DNA of 64,000 bases from Verrucomicrobiaceae bacterium (lineage in GTDB: Bacteria; Verrucomicrobiota; Verrucomicrobiia; Verrucomicrobiales; Verrucomicrobiaceae): contig JAEUHN010000004.1 of the NCBI GenBank assembly GCA_016795365.1, positions 248,001-312,000 of the forward strand. Reading direction: 5' to 3'. Numbering within the stretch: the stretch's first letter is position 1; each line of letters begins with the position of its first letter. A program made the translations under genes and the position numbers. The notes beneath the pieces were generated by a model, which was given only the letters and a program-made list of their open reading frames with translations, was not told the origin of the DNA and searched no databases. This document shows positions 51,942-63,643 of this stretch, piece by piece.

Positions 51942-54900
51942 TCACTGAGGTGTGAGTCGCACACGCATGAAGCGCTTCACTCCCGGCCCCACGGGAACGT
52001 TGTCCCGCACGACCAGTTGATTGCTGGTGTTCACTTCCGTGACCAACCCAACGCTCGACCAGCTGGCTTCATCGCCAGGGTCACTGGTCGCTTCCACGGA
52101 CATCAAGACATCGGTCGCCGCAGGGTTTCGAGGCATGCTCAAGCGCAGATACTTCTCGGTGCTCACCGAAGTTAGTTCGACCACTTCAGGACTCGTGTTT
52201 CGCACCGTGCCATTGGTTCCCGCCGCATACTCGAGAAGATTCACGAGTCCATCACCATCGGCATCCAGGTTGCCCTCAGACAGGAGATTGGCCTCGTTGC
52301 CCACATTGTTCTGATCGAGCCATTTCGCGAAAGGCTGCGAGTAAGCTGTGAAGCTCAGGTCCCTGAAGCTGACCACGCCGCTGTCACTTGCCTGGAGACG
52401 GACTGCGTAGCTCCCACTCGCCGTGAATGAACCCGATGTGTCTGCCGCACTCGCATCACCAAAGACAATCGTATCGGGACCACCGACCTGGGACCACTGC
52501 GACGTCAAGCTAACGGGCAAAGGAAAGTTATCGTCGGTCACCGTTCCATCGAACGAGACGGGCGACACATCGCCGACCACCGCAGCGGTGATGACAGGTG
52601 CCTTGTTCAAGGGCACCACCGTGATGTTGCTGAACTTGGCGGTGTTGAGCACGCCCGCCGTTCCTCCGGCATTGTCCACGGCAAATCCGACAAGCACATT
52701 GGGGCTCATGATAATCGTCCGCGGACTCCCCAACTGCGCCCAGGTGCCAGGCACCCCGCCTGAGTCCGCTGCATGGAATGCCGTGATGCTGTTGCCCTGA
52801 CGGACCAGACGCATCCAGCGAATCTTGCCCGTGAAACTCGGCACTCCTCCCCCGCTCCCTCCGGCCACGCTCCGCCAGATGTAACCGCTGAAGGACCCCG
52901 TAGGAATGCGCCCCAGGTGTGCGTATGCACCGTTGTCCATGCTCTCGCGAATCTCGATGCCGCTCAGTGCATTGAGTGCGCCGCTCGTTGCGTCCGTGAG
53001 CTTGGCTGTGACGACGAGGTCACCGCTGTATTGCCAGCCATAGAACGCACCACTACCATCAAGGCTGCCCGTGGCCGCCACCGTGTAAGTCGTGCCATCA
53101 AATGCGAAGGTCGCCTGCGTGCTCGGCGATGTTCCGAAATCCTCGCTCACCAATGCCGGACCGCTCGGTGCGGGAGTGAGCGTGATGTTATCGAAGGTGG
53201 CCGCGCACAGCTGACCGGCAGTGCTGCTGTTTCCTGTCGCCGTCACACCGAGTTCCGCGGTGGTATTGATCATCGAGACCACCGTTGGCGTGCCGATGGC
53301 GGTCCAGTTGCTGCCATCCGCGGAATACGAGGCCGTGATGGTGTTGGAAGCACTCACACGATCAAGCTTTACCCAAATCGGAAGGCTGATCCCCGCTTGC
53401 GTCACCACGGTATCCGCAGTGCTCACCGTCGTTCGCGTGCGGAACTGCAAAGCTCCACCCGAGTATCCGAGCACGGCGCGATTGACGGATTTATTGAGGC
53501 TGTCGCGGATCGTCACACCGGCAAGTGGGGTCGCAGCTGGCCCACCAAGCGTCGTCAAGCGAGCGACGATGCTGCCATCGCCTGTCACCTGCCGAGCCAT
53601 AATGTGAGCACCGTCATTTGTGACCGATGCATAACCTGCGCCCATGCCCGTGAGCACATAGCTTCCGCCCACCCTGGCACTCTGACCGCGCTGCTGGGTG
53701 GTCGGACTCATGTCTTGCGCGATCCAATCCGTGGCAGCCACAGCGCTACCCACTACTACGGTCACCTGATCACTCACGGTGAACAAGGTATCCGAGGCCG
53801 TGAATTTCAAAACATAAACGCCATCCGCACTGAAGGTCACATTGCTACTAAGCGCATTGGGAGTCGAAATGGTGGCTGTTCCAGGACCACTGACCTGGCT
53901 CCATGTCGTCACCAAGGCTGCGGGCAATCCATCGTCTGTCGCAGTGGCACTCACCACGATCCCCTGCCCGCTGGCGACGAGCGCACCATTGGCACTGGGG
54001 CTATCGATAGTAATCGTCGGAGCGAAGTCATTATCGTGGATGACAATCTCGTCGTAGCCTGCACCACCAAGCGTGTAACTGCCTGCGCTAAGCTGCACGA
54101 GAACAGTCTCATCGCCCTCACTCGCGGTGTCGTTGATGGGCGAGACCGTGATGGTCTTGCTCGATTCATTGGCTGCAAAGCTCAGCGGCGACACCAGTGC
54201 CGTGAAGTCGGATCCACTGGTAGCCGAGCCACTCACCGTGAAGGCCACACTCAGTGTGCCTGTTGTTGGTGCCGTGCGGGTCACCGTGAAGGTAGCGGTA
54301 TTGCCAGGCGTCTCTGAGGCCTCGGGATCTGTGGCTGAAATGGTCACCGTGCTACGATCATCATCAGCGATGATCACGGTCGCAGTCGATGGCGATCCCA
54401 CCACGTAAGCAGCATTGGAACTAACCGTCTCAATCACCGTCTCATTGCCTTCGTTCGTCGAGTCATTGATCGGCGTCACGGTCACGGTGGCACTCGATGA
54501 TCCAGCGGGAATCGTCAGACTCAGCGGCGTGGCGATGGCCGTGAAGTCAGTGCCAGACACCGCTGTGCCGGTCCGCGCCAGCGACACGATCAAAGCATTG
54601 GTTGTGGGTCCGGTGCGGCTGACTGTAAAGACGCCCGGATCAAGCCCCGCCTCTGCGGCATTGGCATCAGTCGCCACAATGCTGACCACCGGCAGATCAT
54701 CATCCGTGATGGTGAAGGTGTGCGCGCTCTGCGTGCTCAGTGCCGCCCCCACAGGATTCGCCAGCGTGATTACCACTGTCTCGCCCGGCTCTACATCGCT
54801 GTCATCGAGAACCACGAGCGGAATGCTTGCCACCGTATCCCCAGGAGCAAGCGTCAGCGTCCCGCTCGCAAGGGTGAAATCGACATCGCCCGTCGCCGTT

Positions 54901-57900
54901 CCGCTGATGGTATAGTCCACCGTCACGTCCGAAGTCATCGGCGTGCTCAGAGACACGGCGATCGATTGTGTGCCGGCAGTCGCCTCAACGGCACTGCTCA
55001 AGGTTTGTGCAAAGCCGATATAGGGCAGCGCAGGACCCGTATCGTCGTCGTCGATCACATAGGTGAAGGTGCTGTTCGCACCCAGAATCGCATTCGCAGG
55101 GCTGCGCAGGACCACGGTGACGGACTCATTGGGCTCCGAGATCAGGTCATTGTTGATCGTCAGCATGATGTTCTTCGTCTGCTCCAGATCGTTAAACGTC
55201 AGTGTGCCCGTAGGCAGCGTGTAATCGACGCCAAAGCCGAACGCCGTCGTCACCGAGGTGCTGCGGGTGACAAACTCACTCATCGCGTTCGAGACCAGCC
55301 CGCAGTAGGCCGATAGAGATCGATAGTTGTTCATCTCACGAGCCATGATGCCGGCCTGCGCCGTGGTGGCACCACCGCTCTGCGTGAGCACCCGCGCCGC
55401 GATCGTGAAGTCGCCAGTGATGGTCTTGGCCACGAAATGACACTCATCTTCGGTGCTGCCGATCTGCTGGCCTGAGCCCACCACCGTATAGACTCCGCTG
55501 TTCAAGGAGTCGCTCCCTTGCGCGTTCACGTAGCCAATGGTGCGTCCGGTGAGCCCGCTCGCAGCGACTCCGTTGATCGTTACGTTATCAAAGGTCGCCG
55601 TGTGCAGCGAGCCATCAGACTTCGCACTCACGGCGAGACCTGCCTGCACATCCAAGCCCATGGGAATGGTCCGATTGGTGCTGGTTTGCACCCACGTCGT
55701 GCCATCGGGCGAAGACCAGCCACTGAACACATCGCCAGTGCGCTGAAGCTTGATCCAATAAGGGCGAACGTTGGTGAGAGTGCTGGTCGCGGATGCCGCA
55801 TTGCCAGTGGCAGGCAGACGATACGTCTGGCGTGCAACGGCCGTCTTCTCCATCAGCGTGCTCACATGAGAGACGTTGTTCGCGGTGGTCTGACGGATCG
55901 TCACACCGGCATTCGATGTATTGCTCCCACCCGAGATGCTGACCACCCGTGCGGTGACGGTGCAGTTCACTGAATTGGTGACCGCATACGAAACCAAGCA
56001 AGCGGTGTCCGTTGCCCCGTTGGTGCTCAAACCCGTGCCACCTGCAACGAGTGTAAACACTCCGCCCGCCTCACTGCTGGTGCTCGCAGGGTTGGTGGTG
56101 CCGATGCTGCCGAAGGTCGGCGTCAAACTGATCGTTGAACCCACATCCAGTCCTGTGATGCTCACATTGTCGAGAGTCGCAGTGCAACTCGTTCCCGATG
56201 CTGATGAGGCCGCCACAAGCCCGACGATGTAGGCGCTCGTGGTCGTCGTTGGCGAGCGTGTGCTGCTGAGGGTTGTCCAGGTGACCCCATCAACGGAGAT
56301 ATAGCTGGTGTGAACGGCGCCTGCACGCGTCACGCGAACCCAGTAAGGCAGGGCGATAGAAGCGTTCGCAGTCGCCGTCGATGCGCGAGATCCTGTATCG
56401 ACCACATACTCGACGCTCGTAGTCCCCGTCGATGGCGAGGCAAGTGTGACCGGCACCTCGACCGTTGTCGTGCTCTCGGGACCGGCCGCGCCAGTGGCGG
56501 AGAACTGAACGGTCTGCGCGCCTGTGTCGTTGTCGTCGAGGCAGATCGTGGCATCGAGAGTCTTCGAATAGCTGCCCGGCTCGGCATGGAACACGATGGT
56601 CTCTGTCCCTTCGAGCGCAGTGTCATTCAAACCGGTCTGGCTCAGGGTGAGATCGGCACCTGATGCACCAGCAGGAATGGTCAGCACGCCGGCTCGGGTG
56701 CCATAATCAAACGTGAGCGTGGCACTCGTCGTCACACTGAAATCCGCTGGCTGAGCTGTTCCTGGAGTGGCCGTGCCTTGCAGGGAGAAGTTCACGTCCA
56801 GCGCTGCCGCAGTCGATCCTGTTCGAGAGACATAGAATTTGAAAGGCGAAGTCGTGGCACCCTCAGTGATGCGCACGCCACCTCCCGAACTGATCTGCGC
56901 ATCTGCCCACACCGTCGGCTGATCATTGTCCCTCAGCCAGATGCTCGCACTTGAAGTGGGACCAAAGGTCGTCACGACGCTATTGGTGGTGATGCTGCAA
57001 ACAATGCTCTCGATGTCCTCAAGGTCAGTGTCGTTCACCGGCACCAGGGTGAGATCGACCGTGGCCGCGACAGCGCCAGAGGTAGCATTCATCACGATCG
57101 TGCCAGTGCCTGAGGCTGAATCATACGTGCTGCCTGCGGGAGAAGGGGGAAGGGTCACGGCGTAGTCAGCGACTCGTGTGGCCGTTCCTGTAAGGGCGAA
57201 AGGAATCGCCACTGTGCCGGAGCCCGATCCTTTCAAGGAGAAGCGAATGACACCCGAAGCCCCGCCCTCCACTGCCGTTGTGACGGCTGCCAGTTCAACA
57301 TACGGAACGTTTCCCGCACCATCATTGATCGTGATCGTCGCGGAGTTGTTGCTCCCAAGTTTGTAGTTCGTCGGACCAGCCCCGAGTTGCAGCAGCACCT
57401 GCTCAGGCGTCTCGCCAATGCCATCCCAGCGCGGCACGATGCTGATGCTTGCCGATGGCTTGCCCGCCGGAATTTGCAGGACTCCAGGCAACGGCTCGAA
57501 GTCCGCACCATTGAGCGCAGGAACTCCAGTGCTTGGATTGCCAGCGACGGAGTAGTAAACCGTCAAGGGCGAGCTAAGGTCTCCTGTCCGCGTGACCACA
57601 AAGGTCCCCGTGTTCGCCACGGCTCCGACGGCGCTCATGTCCACCTCTTGAGCCGTGGCATCCGTCGCGACCACGCTCACTACATTGGTGTCATCATCAA
57701 ACAAACTCACCGTCGCACTCGATGCGGTGGGACTGATCACATACGCAGCATTGGACGACAGTGTCACGCTAACGGTCTCCAAGGACTCCACGAGTGTGTC
57801 GGCGATCGGTGTGACGTTGATTGTGGCACTCGATGCTCCCGCCGGAATGCTCACACTGGTGCCGATCGACGTGTAATCCACCGCCGATGTCGCGGTCCCG

Positions 57901-60900
57901 CCCACGGCAAAATTGACCGTGAGTGCGTTGGTGGTCGCACCCGTTCGCGTCACGGTGAAAACGCCCGGCGAAGCAGTGCCTTCATCCGCTGTGTCCGTCG
58001 TGGCCTGCACGCGCACCTGAGGCAGAGTCGTGGTGTAAGGAGGCGAACCAGTCACGGTTTCGTTGTCTTCGATCACGATGGTCGCCGTTCCTGCATTAGG
58101 CGCGATCAGGTAACCAGATCCAGCACCGAGGGCGAAGATGACCGTTTCTGGACCTTCCACTGCCGTGTCTGCCGTCGGCGTGGTTAGAGCAATGTCGAGC
58201 GTGGCGCTGTCAGCCGGAATGGTGAAGGTGCTGAAGCCACCGGAACCAGAGGCGAGAGCGGGAGTCAATGTGTAGTCGCTGGTAGCTGAAGTTCCCGTCG
58301 CTGGATTCACGTTCACCACGAGAGGCAGACTCAAGTCCCCTGTGCGTGTGAGGCGAAAAGTGCCATTGTCCGTTCCACTGTTCTCGAGAGCCACGGCATC
58401 AGGTGCTGTGATGGAGACGATTGGCAATCCTTCGGCTTCGAAATTCGCCCCGGCAAAGTTGGGGCCGACGGTAATGCTATTGTTGAACAGCTCGCCAAAC
58501 GTGTAGCCATAAAGCGCAGGCGTCACGCTGTAGGTGTTCGCCGACAGATTGGCAATGGTGTAGTAGCCGTCTGAATCCGTGATCGTCGGGTTAACACCGT
58601 TGGCGGTGAGCAGCACGTTAGGCATGCCCACGCCGCCAGAGGTGATGCGTCCGCTGATGGTGTATTTGCTCCCACCGTTGCCCGTCGTGATCAGAATGGT
58701 GCGGGTGGCGCTGCCGCCCTTCATGTCACTCACAGTGCAGCTCACCACGTAACTGCCAGCGGTTGCCGAGAACGTGCGTGTGATCGTCGGTGAATTAGGT
58801 GACACCAGCTTCACCCCGGTATCACCCCAGTGCTGCCACTGATAAGCCAGTGTGTCGCCATCGGGATCAGTCGCATTCGCCGTAAAGGTGACCGTCGAAC
58901 TCACTGGCACCACCGTGGACGAAGCCGACAGGGTGAGCGTAGGAGCGTGATTGGAGCTGAAGTCCCCCATGTTGACCAGCACGTCCACATACTTGGGCGT
59001 GGTGCTGCTGACGCCCACCGTGGTGATGTAGATTCCCGCCTCGGTGTCGGCAAAGGTTTGCCCCAGGGCGATCGGTGCATCGTCCTTGTTATACGGTGAG
59101 CCCGGCGTGGTGTCGATGAGCTGGATGTTGCCACCACCACCACTCGAATACTTCCAGCCCAGGATCATGCCTTGATCCACCCACGGGCGCGTGGCGTTTC
59201 CCGTGTAAAGCTGACGCAGCTCTCCCCAGTAGGTATGTTGAGAATCCTTCGTGATGGTCAGCGCATAGCGATTGCGCGGATCGAGAATGGGCTGATCGAA
59301 GGCATGCAAACGATACAGCCCGCTCGAGGTGATGTTTTGCACGAAGTTCGACGGCATCCACTTCACCTGCACCTTCGCCGCCGCATTGTAGTGATCAGTT
59401 GGCACGCTGCCGCCCCCCATCACATCATAGCTGTCACCATACTCGGCATTGGCACCGGGACCGATGGCACTGGTGCCGGCAGTGTCCCAAAAGTTCGCAT
59501 GAGCCAGACCAAAGGCGTGGCCAATTTCATGCGCCGTCACGCCCACACTATCGCCATACACCCAGACCGTGCTCCCTCCACCCCAGCCGCCTGTGGGCCG
59601 AGCACCGCCGATCAGCCGCAGCACGGTCACATCGTAGTCATTGTAATCAAAGCCGATGCGCCGTGCCTCCTCGCGAGCGTGTGCCATCTCGAGCCCCAGG
59701 CCGTCGATATCACCGCCATTCGAACTGTCGCGCTGCACATACCAAGCTTCGTTCTTGGGCAGTCGGATTGGCGGTGTCACCGTCGTCAGCGTGGTTAGCT
59801 TGCCGAACGACGACTTGGAATAGTAGTCCGCCACGTTGCGCATGATCTCGTAGCACTTCGATTCGGTGGGCAGGTTGTTGTTCTGCACCTGGTCCTGGAA
59901 GCTCATCGGGATGTAGAGCACCTTCAGCTGCCCGATGGCAGGCGTCGGAGGCGCAGGCAGGGAGCCCGTCAGCGTCACCGGACCACCGGTGGCACCTTCC
60001 CCATACAGCAGCGTCTCTGTCAGCTGGGTCTTGTGATAGCCGCCGCAGAGGTAAATGATCTCATCGGGAGTCTCGACCACCGTCTCAGCCTGCTCGGGAG
60101 TCACCGGCTGATCCGCCTCCGAGGCGGCCAGCGTTTGCTTTCCCGAGATGGGGCAGTTCATCACCGCCGTCTTCGCACGGTCGGGAACTTCACCCACCTC
60201 CAAGACTCGAAGCGGCTCAGAGTTCACAGCGAACTCCCGATCAATCACGATCCCATTCAGCGGACGATCAGGCCACGGAAGCAGGTTCGGGTCAGGCTCG
60301 CCGGGCTTGGGCTTCAGCGGCAAATCGCCAGCCGGATACATGTTGAAGGCACCTTCATTACCGAGGGTGGCAATGCGGTGGGTGAGTGTCTTTCCCTGCA
60401 GCAGGACCTGCCCTGGCGGCGGCACGCCTTGGTAAACCATCACCGCGCCCCGCCGATTCACACGCCGCTCTAGCCATCCCAAGATGGCCGATGGAAGCTG
60501 CTGCCGCACCACCATGGGCACAGCGTTCTGAAGAGCCTCCCGGGGATTGTCCTTGATCAGCTCCTTCATTTGAGGGCGACGAGCCTCCGCCAGCTTGATG
60601 CCCTCCGGCACCAGTCGCTCCCGGTCCGCTCCCGACGCTGCGAGGTAGCGCTTCGACCACTGAGCGAAGGCCGCAATGGGTCCGCCGATGACTTCGTCCT
60701 TATCCTGCACTACCTCCTCTGAAGTGTGAATCACCTGTCGGCTGGAAACAGGAACCGTCGGATGACTAGGCTTTGTAGTCACATCAGGCGGGCAATAAAT
60801 ACAGGAAGACGCATCCGATGATAGGTCTCGACGCATTTGATGCCATCCCACCAAGACTGCGAAAACAGTAGCCACGACCAACAAAAAACGTGTGTGTGCA

Positions 60901-60911
60901 GCAAGGCGCAT
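51942..60911 (-). CDS. Giant secreted metzincin-type metalloprotease/adhesin with Calx-beta repeats
   Basis: 2989 residues with a signal/anchor at 7-24. A pro-region of about 330 residues precedes a metalloprotease domain with HEIGHAFGLAH (His-461, Glu-462, His-465, His-471) and a Met-turn-like YDVMGGG. Next come a PKD-like domain, a carboxypeptidase-regulatory-like domain (SGRITSGGVGMPNVLLTANG) and Calx-beta domains 1-5. Calx-beta 6 is split by about two concanavalin/DUF1349-like modules. Calx-beta 7-9, a PKD/REJ-like domain, two more such modules and another PKD-like domain follow, ending in DADGDGLVNLLEYAAG. No PEP-CTERM or LPXTG motif was seen. Calx-beta domains bind calcium and often form adhesins. 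Probably exported to the cell surface or medium. Confidence 0.9.
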   Translation of the reverse strand: MRLAAHTRFLLVVATVFAVLVGWHQMRRDLSSDASSCIYCPPDVTTKPSHPTVPVSSRQVIHTSEEVVQDKDEVIGGPIAAFAQWSKRYLAASGADRERLVPEGIKLAEARRPQMKELIKDNPREALQNAVPMVVRQQLPSAILGWLERRVNRRGAVMVYQGVPPPGQVLLQGKTLTHRIATLGNEGAFNMYPAGDLPLKPKPGEPDPNLLPWPDRPLNGIVIDREFAVNSEPLRVLEVGEVPDRAKTAVMNCPISGKQTLAASEADQPVTPEQAETVVETPDEIIYLCGGYHKTQLTETLLYGEGATGGPVTLTGSLPAPPTPAIGQLKVLYIPMSFQDQVQNNNLPTESKCYEIMRNVADYYSKSSFGKLTTLTTVTPPIRLPKNEAWYVQRDSSNGGDIDGLGLEMAHAREEARRIGFDYNDYDVTVLRLIGGARPTGGWGGGSTVWVYGDSVGVTAHEIGHAFGLAHANFWDTAGTSAIGPGANAEYGDSYDVMGGGSVPTDHYNAAAKVQVKWMPSNFVQNITSSGLYRLHAFDQPILDPRNRYALTITKDSQHTYWGELRQLYTGNATRPWVDQGMILGWKYSSGGGGNIQLIDTTPGSPYNKDDAPIALGQTFADTEAGIYITTVGVSSTTPKYVDVLVNMGDFSSNHAPTLTLSASSTVVPVSSTVTFTANATDPDGDTLAYQWQHWGDTGVKLVSPNSPTITRTFSATAGSYVVSCTVSDMKGGSATRTILITTGNGGSKYTISGRITSGGVGMPNVLLTANGVNPTITDSDGYYTIANLSANTYSVTPALYGYTFGELFNNSITVGPNFAGANFEAEGLPIVSITAPDAVALENSGTDNGTFRLTRTGDLSLPLVVNVNPATGTSATSDYTLTPALASGSGGFSTFTIPADSATLDIALTTPTADTAVEGPETVIFALGAGSGYLIAPNAGTATIVIEDNETVTGSPPYTTTLPQVRVQATTDTADEGTASPGVFTVTRTGATTNALTVNFAVGGTATSAVDYTSIGTSVSIPAGASSATINVTPIADTLVESLETVSVTLSSNAAYVISPTASSATVSLFDDDTNVVSVVATDATAQEVDMSAVGAVANTGTFVVTRTGDLSSPLTVYYSVAGNPSTGVPALNGADFEPLPGVLQIPAGKPSASISIVPRWDGIGETPEQVLLQLGAGPTNYKLGSNNSATITINDGAGNVPYVELAAVTTAVEGGASGVIRFSLKGSGSGTVAIPFALTGTATRVADYAVTLPPSPAGSTYDSASGTGTIVMNATSGAVAATVDLTLVPVNDTDLEDIESIVCSITTNSVVTTFGPTSSASIWLRDNDQPTVWADAQISSGGGVRITEGATTSPFKFYVSRTGSTAAALDVNFSLQGTATPGTAQPADFSVTTSATLTFDYGTRAGVLTIPAGASGADLTLSQTGLNDTALEGTETIVFHAEPGSYSKTLDATICLDDNDTGAQTVQFSATGAAGPESTTTVEVPVTLASPSTGTTSVEYVVDTGSRASTATANASIALPYWVRVTRAGAVHTSYISVDGVTWTTLSSTRSPTTTTSAYIVGLVAASSASGTSCTATLDNVSITGLDVGSTISLTPTFGSIGTTNPASTSSEAGGVFTLVAGGTGLSTNGATDTACLVSYAVTNSVNCTVTARVVSISGGSNTSNAGVTIRQTTANNVSHVSTLMEKTAVARQTYRLPATGNAASATSTLTNVRPYWIKLQRTGDVFSGWSSPDGTTWVQTSTNRTIPMGLDVQAGLAVSAKSDGSLHTATFDNVTINGVAASGLTGRTIGYVNAQGSDSLNSGVYTVVGSGQQIGSTEDECHFVAKTITGDFTIAARVLTQSGGATTAQAGIMAREMNNYRSLSAYCGLVSNAMSEFVTRSTSVTTAFGFGVDYTLPTGTLTFNDLEQTKNIMLTINNDLISEPNESVTVVLRSPANAILGANSTFTYVIDDDDTGPALPYIGFAQTLSSAVEATAGTQSIAVSLSTPMTSDVTVDYTISGTATGDVDFTLASGTLTLAPGDTVASIPLVVLDDSDVEPGETVVITLANPVGAALSTQSAHTFTITDDDLPVVSIVATDANAAEAGLDPGVFTVSRTGPTTNALIVSLARTGTAVSGTDFTAIATPLSLTIPAGSSSATVTVTPINDSTNEGNETVIETVSSNAAYVVGSPSTATVIIADDDRSTVTISATDPEASETPGNTATFTVTRTAPTTGTLSVAFTVSGSATSGSDFTALVSPLSFAANESSKTITVSPINDTASEGDETVLVQLSAGSYTLGGAGYDEIVIHDNDFAPTITIDSPSANGALVASGQGIVVSATATDDGLPAALVTTWSQVSGPGTATISTPNALSSNVTFSADGVYVLKFTASDTLFTVSDQVTVVVGSAVAATDWIAQDMSPTTQQRGQSARVGGSYVLTGMGAGYASVTNDGAHIMARQVTGDGSIVARLTTLGGPAATPLAGVTIRDSLNKSVNRAVLGYSGGALQFRTRTTVSTADTVVTQAGISLPIWVKLDRVSASNTITASYSADGSNWTAIGTPTVVSMINTTAELGVTATGNSSTAGQLCAATFDNITLTPAPSGPALVSEDFGTSPSTQATFAFDGTTYTVAATGSLDGSGAFYGWQYSGDLVVTAKLTDATSGALNALSGIEIRESMDNGAYAHLGRIPTGSFSGYIWRSVAGGSGGGVPSFTGKIRWMRLVRQGNSITAFHAADSGGVPGTWAQLGSPRTIIMSPNVLVGFAVDNAGGTAGVLNTAKFSNITVVPLNKAPVITAAVVGDVSPVSFDGTVTDDNFPLPVSLTSQWSQVGGPDTIVFGDASAADTSGSFTASGSYAVRLQASDSGVVSFRDLSFTAYSQPFAKWLDQNNVGNEANLLSEGNLDADGDGLVNLLEYAAGTNGTVRNTSPEVVELTSVSTEKYLRLSMPRNPAATDVLMSVEATSDPGDEASWSSVGLVTEVNTSNQLVVRDNVPVGPGVKRFMRVRLTPQ

Positions 60912-61002: not shown

Positions 61003-62619
61003 CTAGTCCTTCGACTTCCCCTTTCCTTTGCCTTTTCCCTTCCCTTTGGCACCGGCAGCAGGGTTGGCCTGCTTGCGAGAGACCTTTGGGGGAGGTGCGG
61101 TCGGATTCGTGTCTTTGAACTTCACCTGGAGGTCCTTCATCTGGGCGAGCAGCGATTCCTTGATGCTGGCGTAATCTGCATCAGCAATGACGGACTTCAT
61201 CTCGTTTGGGTCCTTGTTCAGATCGAACAGCTCCCACTCGTCGCTCTGGTAGTAGTGGATCAGCTTGTAGCCTGTCTCCGTGCGCACGCCATAATGGGGC
61301 GCGACGTGGTGAGGCTGCGGATACTCGTAGTAGTGATAGTAGTGCGCGGTGCGCCAGTCCTTCGGCTTCTCGCCTTTCAGGATCGGCAGAAAGCTACGTC
61401 CCTGCATGTCCTCGGGAATGGCCACGCCAGCGGCATCAAGGAAGGTCTCGGCGAAGTCCAGCGTGCTGACGAGATCCTTGTTCTCCGATCCAGCCTTCAC
61501 CACGCCCGGCCAGCGAACGAGCAGCGGCGTGTGCAGCGATTCCTCATACATCCAGCGCTTGTCGAACCAGCCATGCTCACCCAGGTAGAATCCTTGATCA
61601 CTGGAATAGACGACGATGGTGTTCTTCGCCAAGCCCGTCTCATCCAGCCAGGCGAGGACGCGACCCACATTCCGATCCACGCCCGCGACGGTGCTGAGAT
61701 AGTCCTTCATGTAGCGCTGGTATTTCCAGCGGACCAGATCCTTGCCCTGAAGGTTCGCCTTGCGGAAGGCAGCATCAATCGGGTTGTAGTGCGCATCCCA
61801 GAGGGCGCGCTGAGCATCGGTCATGCGGGCATACCAGCCCCCGCGCTTGGCACCCGAGCCTGGCTCATCGGCTTCACCAGGCTGCAACGGCATCTTCAAG
61901 TCCGAGTTCAGCGTCATGTGCTGATTAATGCCCATCTCGTGATTGCGAGCTGGCGAGGCACGGCCCTCGTAATCATCAAAAAGGTTGGGGGGCTCGGGGA
62001 TCGTTTCGTTGTCGTAGAGGCCGAGTTCCTGCGGGCCTGGCGACCACTCACGGTGCGGAGCCTTCTGCCAGTAGCAGAGCATGAAGGGCTTGCTCTGATC
62101 GCGCTCCTCCTTGAGCCACTTCATCGCTTTGTCTGTGATCACATCGCTCACGTAGCCTTCGATGTGCTCCTTGCCATTCTTCGTGATGAAGTCGGGATTG
62201 TAGTAGCTCCCCTGCCCTGGCAGCACCGCCCATTGATCGAAGCCCGTGGGATCACTTTCGAGATGCCACTTGCCGATGACGCACGTCTGGTAGCCCGCCT
62301 TTTGTAACAGCTTTGGGTAGGTCTGCTGCGTGTTGTCGAAGAACGACGAGTTGTCGGGGAAGCCGTTCACGTGGTTGTATTTGCCCGTCAGCACCGTGGC
62401 GCGGCTGGGACCGCAGATGGAGTTCGTCACCATGCAGTGGCGGAAGAGCATCCCCTCGCGGGCAATGCGATCGAGGTTCGGCGTCTTCGCGAATGAGGAT
62501 CCATAGGCCCCGATTCCCTTAAGCGCATGGTCATCGCTGAAGATGAAAAGGATGTTGGGCCGGTCAGCCGCCGAAGCGAACGAGACTATGGCGATCAAAA
62601 GCAAGGCGAGGCGTGTCAT
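61003..62619 (-). CDS. Sulfatase (canonical CGPSR active site)
   Basis: 538 residues from [20 protein letters not shown], a signal peptide; upstream in-frame ATGs (to 62817) would overlap the divergent gene. Active-site blocks: [36 protein letters not shown] (FGly Cys-69), [37 protein letters not shown]. The length and C-terminal blocks ([19 protein letters not shown]) suggest the N-sulfoglucosamine/heparan-type or alginate-like group. The last 25 residues are Gly/Lys repeats ([13 protein letters not shown]), possibly a polyanion-binding tail. The gene is divergent from the isomerase gene. Confidence 0.95.
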
Positions 62620-62731
62620 GGGCCGGAGAGAACGCAAGGATGTCCGCCACATTTCATTCACCCGAGAAATGCCCCGAAGCAGAACGCAACCTCTTGATTG
62701 GAGCCCTGTCGTTCGAGCGTTCTTGATCACC

Positions 62732-63643
62732 ATGTCCACCATCGACCGTCGCCAATTTCTCCGTCGTGCTAGCCTCGCCGCCGCTGCCACAGCCCTAAGC
62801 CCGACGGGTTCTCTCATCGCTGCATCCGATGTGCCGAACGCTCTGGTCGGCCGTCTCTACAAGACGCTCAAAGTCGGCATGATCAAAGGTGGCAGTTCAT
62901 TGACCGAGCGATTCAAGACAGCCAAGGCCGCAGGCTTCATGGGCGTGGAGCTCAACCTTCCCGGCGACAATGTGGAAGAGGCACGCAAGGCCATCACCGA
63001 GTCCGGACTGGTCGTCGATGGCAGCGTGTGCTCCTCCCATTGGTCCATCCGTCACACCAGCCCTGACGCAAACACACGGGCCAAGGCCTTGGAGAATCTG
63101 AAGCAAGTCCTGCGCGACACCCGGGCAGTGGGCGGGCACAGCGTTCTGCTGGTGGTAGGCAAGGGCGAGGATGGTCCCGAGAACGAGATCTGGGCGCGCT
63201 CCGTGGAGAACATCGCCAAAGCGGTCCCGCTCGCCGCCGAAGTGGGCGTGCAGATCGTGATCGAGAATGTATGGAACCAGTTCCTCTACGACCACAACGG
63301 AGGAGCCGATCAGAAGGCCGACAAGTTCGTGAAGTATGTCGATGAATTCCGCTCGCCCTGGGTGGGCATGCACTTCGACATCGGCAATCACTGGAAATAC
63401 GGCAGTATGGGCGACTGGATTCGCCAGCTAGGGCACCGCGTGCTGAAGCTTGATGTGAAAGGCTTCTCTCGCGCTCAAAACAAGTTCACCCCCATCGGCG
63501 AAGGCGACATCGACTACGCCGACGTGCGCAAGGCGCTCATCGAGATCAACTTCCACGGATGGCTCGCGGCGGAAGTCGCGGGTGGCGATCTCGCCGCCCT
63601 CACCAGCGTGGCCCAGCAGATGGACAAGGCGTTCGGACTCTAA
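62732..63643 (+). CDS. Tat-exported sugar phosphate isomerase/epimerase-like TIM-barrel protein
   Basis: 303 residues from [20 protein letters not shown], a Tat signal; the frame upstream to 62543 overlaps the sulfatase gene and is not used. The body is an AP-endonuclease-2-type TIM barrel: [33 protein letters not shown] (metal-ligand Glu), [15 protein letters not shown] (His/Asp), [26 protein letters not shown] in outline, and [12 protein letters not shown] (Glu). Proteins of this type epimerise or isomerise sugars; export suggests extracytoplasmic action with the adjacent divergent sulfatase. The stop abuts the MITE-like element. Confidence 0.88.

Follow-up and report, generated by a model that had tools for sequence, protein, structure and literature searches.

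A circularly permuted ConA-like module within the sixth Calx-beta domain of a giant Verrucomicrobiaceae protein is probably an old, inherited nested insertion

The window, a stretch of 64,000 nucleotides from a Verrucomicrobiaceae bacterium, carries on its minus strand a gene for a giant secreted-type protein of 2989 aa. From the N- to the C-terminus, this protein consists of a metalloprotease-like N-terminus, a PKD domain and a carboxypeptidase-regulatory-like domain, followed by nine Calx-beta domains; ConA-like modules, PKD and a C-terminal domain are present as well. A metzincin-type motif, HEIGHAFGLAH, can be read from the sequence of the N-terminus. Pfam searches of the open reading frame returned a weak metzincin-like N-terminal match, PKD, six separate Calx-beta stretches and DUF1349 stretches, and domain HMMs of the family, built here, were used to resolve the nine Calx-beta domains and the ConA-like modules. 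The gene is adjoined by a sulfatase gene (PF00884, SGSH_C) at 61003-62817 on the minus strand, which would fit a role of the giant protein on sulfated polysaccharides. The features needed in the following are:

51942..60911, minus strand: giant secreted-type protein, 2989 aa (sequence, Pfam, family HMMs)
58677..60686, minus strand: metalloprotease-like plus PKD N-terminal part, residues 76-745
56373..56516, minus strand: Calx-beta 6, N-half, residues about 1466-1513 (sequence, homologue alignment, alignment to the intact Calx-beta 6 of insert-free relatives)
56373..56380, minus strand: octamer CGACGGCG at the upstream junction, not conserved
56151..56372, minus strand: permuted ConA-like/DUF1349 module, C-half, residues about 1514-1587 (Pfam DUF1349 positions 104-177, family HMM)
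55569..56147, minus strand: whole module B, residues about 1589-1781 (family HMM, module tree)
55245..55568, minus strand: permuted module, N-half, residues about 1782-1889 (family HMM, homologue alignment)
55242..55249, minus strand: octamer CGACGGCG at the downstream junction, not conserved
55026..55244, minus strand: Calx-beta 6, C-half, residues about 1890-1962 (family HMM, Pfam)
53169..53738, minus strand: unpermuted downstream module D, residues 2392-2581 (family HMM)
52611..53147, minus strand: unpermuted downstream module E, residues 2589-2767 (family HMM)

An earlier note on this DNA had claimed that Calx-beta 6 is broken by about 377 residues, and that the insert starts in the middle of one module and stops in the middle of another. 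Both observations were borne out, the former by the Calx-beta profile together with the homologue alignment and the latter by the family HMMs. The C-half of Calx-beta 6 exceeds the gathering score of the Calx-beta profile (PF03160), and positions 40-110 of the family's Calx profile pick up again at residues 1884-1956. The N-half alone has no Pfam match, yet it aligns to the intact Calx-beta 6 of relatives. In the alignment, the insertion site corresponds to one turn of the domain, ...VEYxxxTG / TAxGxGVDYTL. Within the insert, module profile positions 93-191 precede a full module (residues 1593-1781) and positions 3-114 come after it, giving the register C-half, whole module, N-half. Both halves of the split module are found by the family HMM, and Pfam matches its C-half to DUF1349 (PF07081) at positions 104-177; on its own, module B reaches 21.2 bits against Pfam DUF1349, below the cut-off of 32.4. 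Unlike the DUF1349 ConA-like jelly roll, the split module has its halves swapped, and these are complementary without loss. Modules D and E, further downstream in this protein, show the unpermuted order, and the insert thus carries a circular permutation.

The arrangement is widely shared. Of 289 genomes of the order, 44 match the region at E below 1e-20, and no fewer than 38 distinct homologous loci within the class share the two junctions (39 loci counting the window). Homologues from the same genus, the same family and other families align straight across both junctions at 33-67% identity, and carriers of the insert include the cultured isolate Brevifollis gellanilyticus NBRC 108608 and Prosthecobacter MAGs. 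Across the 39 loci, the insert falls into two length classes, 369-387 aa with two modules (n = 32) and 181-187 aa with one (n = 7). In all 39, the last matched profile position of the module N-half lies at 111-121 (median 115); the match to the C-half begins at median position 110 and that to the Calx C-half at median 43; the split points on the N-half side vary little between loci. Phylum-wide matches to a single-module alignment were also considered and were not counted, since most of those outside the subfamily are tandem modules matched across a boundary, again C-half then N-half. These genomes commonly contain modules in tandem arrays.

A search for homologues lacking the 1131-bp insert, which the earlier note had proposed as a check, showed that all close homologues carry an insert with the same junctions, across several families of the class. 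For the subfamily, this is the result that the note had named as refuting its reading. Residues 76-745 served as the query for relatives, whether they had the insert or lacked it, and insert-free forms were found only in more distant paralogous subfamilies. An uninterrupted sixth Calx-beta domain is present in L097 from the window's own genome, in G007 of the same family and in paralogues in G010, G024 and G396. L097 is a 4192-aa paralogue whose N-terminus is related (36% identity) and whose Calx-beta 6 is unbroken. In a Calx-beta tree, which at 110 columns is weakly resolved, the reconstituted Calx-beta 6 clusters with the intact sixth domain of the insert-free relatives (14 rows, 87/94), and adjacent domain positions likewise cluster by number. 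Junction conservation, the length classes of whole modules and the intact Calx-beta 6 of relatives are matters of direct observation.

Structures were predicted with AlphaFold from an alignment of 16. The two-module region of the window gave a pLDDT of 79.8 and a pTM of 0.59, with low confidence at the second junction, and the one-module relative L124 gave a pLDDT of 80.7 and a pTM of 0.76; the junction loops are of low model confidence. Foldseek returned only weak matches to the window's two-module model, none below E 0.001, and the fold argument therefore rests on the one-module relative. The L124 model matches the Calx-beta domains of NCX1, CBD1 (3gin) at a target TM of 0.77 and CBD2 (2qvm) at 0.82, over about 298 columns that span the insert. 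It further matches ConA lectins and the engineered circularly permuted glucanase 1ajo. The two Calx halves of L124 are predicted to form a complete beta-sandwich across the insert, and the model and its structure matches agree with a permuted guest standing as a whole domain inside its host. The proposal that the split domain refolds around the modules is thus supported by the L124 model, with a whole Calx-beta domain around the insert, but not by the window's own two-module model. The host resembles PF03160 and the NCX1 domains in the Pfam match of its C-half and in the match of the one-module model to whole CBDs; it differs from them in that one turn is interrupted by 181-387 residues.

The order of events was approached through trees of the modules and of the N-terminal part. 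The module tree joins module B and the permuted module as a sister pair (98/94), and the family f2 modules that are permuted and present singly attach outside this pair. The N-terminal tree unites 28 split proteins in one clade (99/95) whose basal members are single-module f2 forms, and three further single-module forms, L159, L089 and L058, occupy three separate places within the two-module clade. L058, which is the same record as L124, has exactly one module fewer than the two-module L118. Taken together, the two trees and this comparison indicate that the insert probably began as one permuted module, which was then duplicated where it stood, and that one module was lost again on at least three later occasions. 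Both trees were midpoint-rooted, and the direction of change is therefore read from parsimony and the module tree rather than from an outgroup. The long-branched L092 falls with the insert-free group, and because of it a single clade of all split proteins is borderline (p-AU 0.047); an older gain followed by losses is therefore possible. As a separate observation, the permuted module of L090 and L092 (both f2) clusters with the unpermuted downstream f2 module (97/87), which hints at the donor or at a later exchange between the two positions.

Several explanations can be weighed against these data. The earlier note had explained the arrangement by a DNA circle of two modules that integrated recently through a crossover at an 8-nt microhomology. 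The two copies of CGACGGCG do lie at the junctions, exactly 1131 bp (377 codons) apart and both in codon phase 1, and collapsing them or circularising the segment makes both domains continuous. On comparison with the homologues, however, the octamer pair is a coincidence and weak evidence. There are 11 copies of CGACGGCG in the window against 7.0 expected, and when stretches of this size are drawn at random in pairs from the same reading frame, about 4.6% of the pairs share a word of at least 8 nt. Each copy specifies (S/T)-T-A with codons that the strain commonly uses, within Ser/Thr/Ala-rich loops. Not one of 20 tested homologues carries the octamer at its two junctions; the longest words shared between their junctions measure 4-8 nt and differ, the nearest homologue having another 8-mer. 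The octamer was also considered as a target-site footprint and rejected, being near chance and absent from both junctions in the homologues. Further evidence against a recent circle is that the junctions are identical in several families, in homologues down to 33% identity, and that no empty site was found among close homologues. Moreover, module B appears to be a later duplicate and the basal relatives have one module. If the ancestral insert was one module and the second arose by internal duplication, a two-module circle need never have existed, and we regard its recent integration as scarcely credible. Of the original proposal, the interrupted Calx-beta domain, the permuted modules and the predicted refolding stand, while the circle with microhomology gives way to the conserved junctions, the unshared octamer and the trees.

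The remaining alternatives fare differently. An assembly error might be suspected in a region so rich in repeats, but the same order is found in many independent assemblies, one of them from a cultured strain, and this explanation was set aside as having a negligible chance. Half-domains at both edges would also result if an array of Calx-beta domains and modules had undergone two independent deletions that fused half-domains by chance, without a nested fold. Such deletions would not be expected to break both domain types at matching points and leave complementary halves, and the L124 model rebuilds an entire Calx-beta domain; this explanation is improbable. An ancestral circle of one module, formed by recombination between tandem modules and integrated long ago, is a better candidate. 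The permuted register would follow automatically, the insert spans one module period exactly and is complementary at the same loop, and tandem arrays that could supply such a circle are frequent in these genomes. Yet a template switch, or a duplication followed by trimming, of one array period would yield the same product, and the original junction sequence has decayed; we consider this circle unlikely, although far less so than the recent one.

We favor, at a probability of about 0.86, an ancient and inherited nested insertion, in which a permuted ConA-like module entered the turn of Calx-beta 6 and was duplicated later, the octamer being there by chance. In the ancestor of the subfamily, one DUF1349-type module, running C-half then N-half, would have been inserted. 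The simplest route to this first permuted copy would be the copying of one module period from a tandem array, starting and ending in the same loop. Calx-beta 6 would still make one fold from its two halves, with the permuted jelly roll standing out from the host. Tandem duplication within the insert would then have converted C-half, N-half into C-half, whole module B, N-half, and single-module forms would have reappeared several times afterwards. Judging from its domain families, the giant protein is likely one that is secreted, sits at the cell surface or acts on a matrix; its Calx-beta array may serve as a rod on the metalloprotease-like protein, with the inserted modules as side-mounted, putative binding domains.

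A second nested insert was observed in relatives of the giant protein. It is about 260-280 aa long and consists of roughly seven units of WAVGDGGTILKWNGT-type repeats, with a propeller-like character to which Pfam gave no confident name. This insert splits Calx-beta 4 in L041 (residues about 1280-1540), L043, L044, L045, L051, L054, L118 and L122, and Calx-beta 5 in L055 and L105; the window has no such insert. It represents a real presence/absence polymorphism among the relatives.

The insert in Calx-beta 6 adds to a known type of event, the nested and permuted domain insertion, although no account of this Calx-beta case turned up in the literature search. The closest known case, with the fold here being a predicted one, is the swaposin, a circularly permuted saposin inside plant aspartic proteinases that has been explained via permutation by duplication in tandem arrays (PMC3320104). 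As in the swaposin, a domain in the order C-half, N-half lies inside another protein and its normal-order form occurs in tandem arrays. Here, in contrast, the guest is a beta jelly roll in a small bacterial Calx-beta domain and is present in one or two copies, always as whole modules. Domain insertion is common, and nested insertions of the form A1-B1-C-B2-A2 are known (PMC13114784); the main text of that survey does not contain the words "Calx" or "concanavalin". The two-module form follows the same scheme, namely Calx N-half, module C-half, whole module, module N-half and Calx C-half. Whereas B in the survey is an ordinary inserted host, B is circularly permuted here and C is B's own duplicate.

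Whether the Calx-beta domains form a bacterial counterpart of the swaposin system is, in our estimate, evenly balanced. They would act as repeated docking hosts, with one or two copies of the permuted module, gained and lost as whole units, in the turn of Calx-beta 6 and, in many relatives, the propeller-like repeats in a neighboring hairpin of Calx-beta 4 or 5. If this is true, nested insertion, duplication and loss could be traced stepwise within one system. A pattern of half-domain against half-domain, however striking, need not signal a recent DNA event. The family offers a natural series, from the intact host through one permuted guest and two guests to loss back to one, that is suited to studies of how nested and permuted domains evolve.
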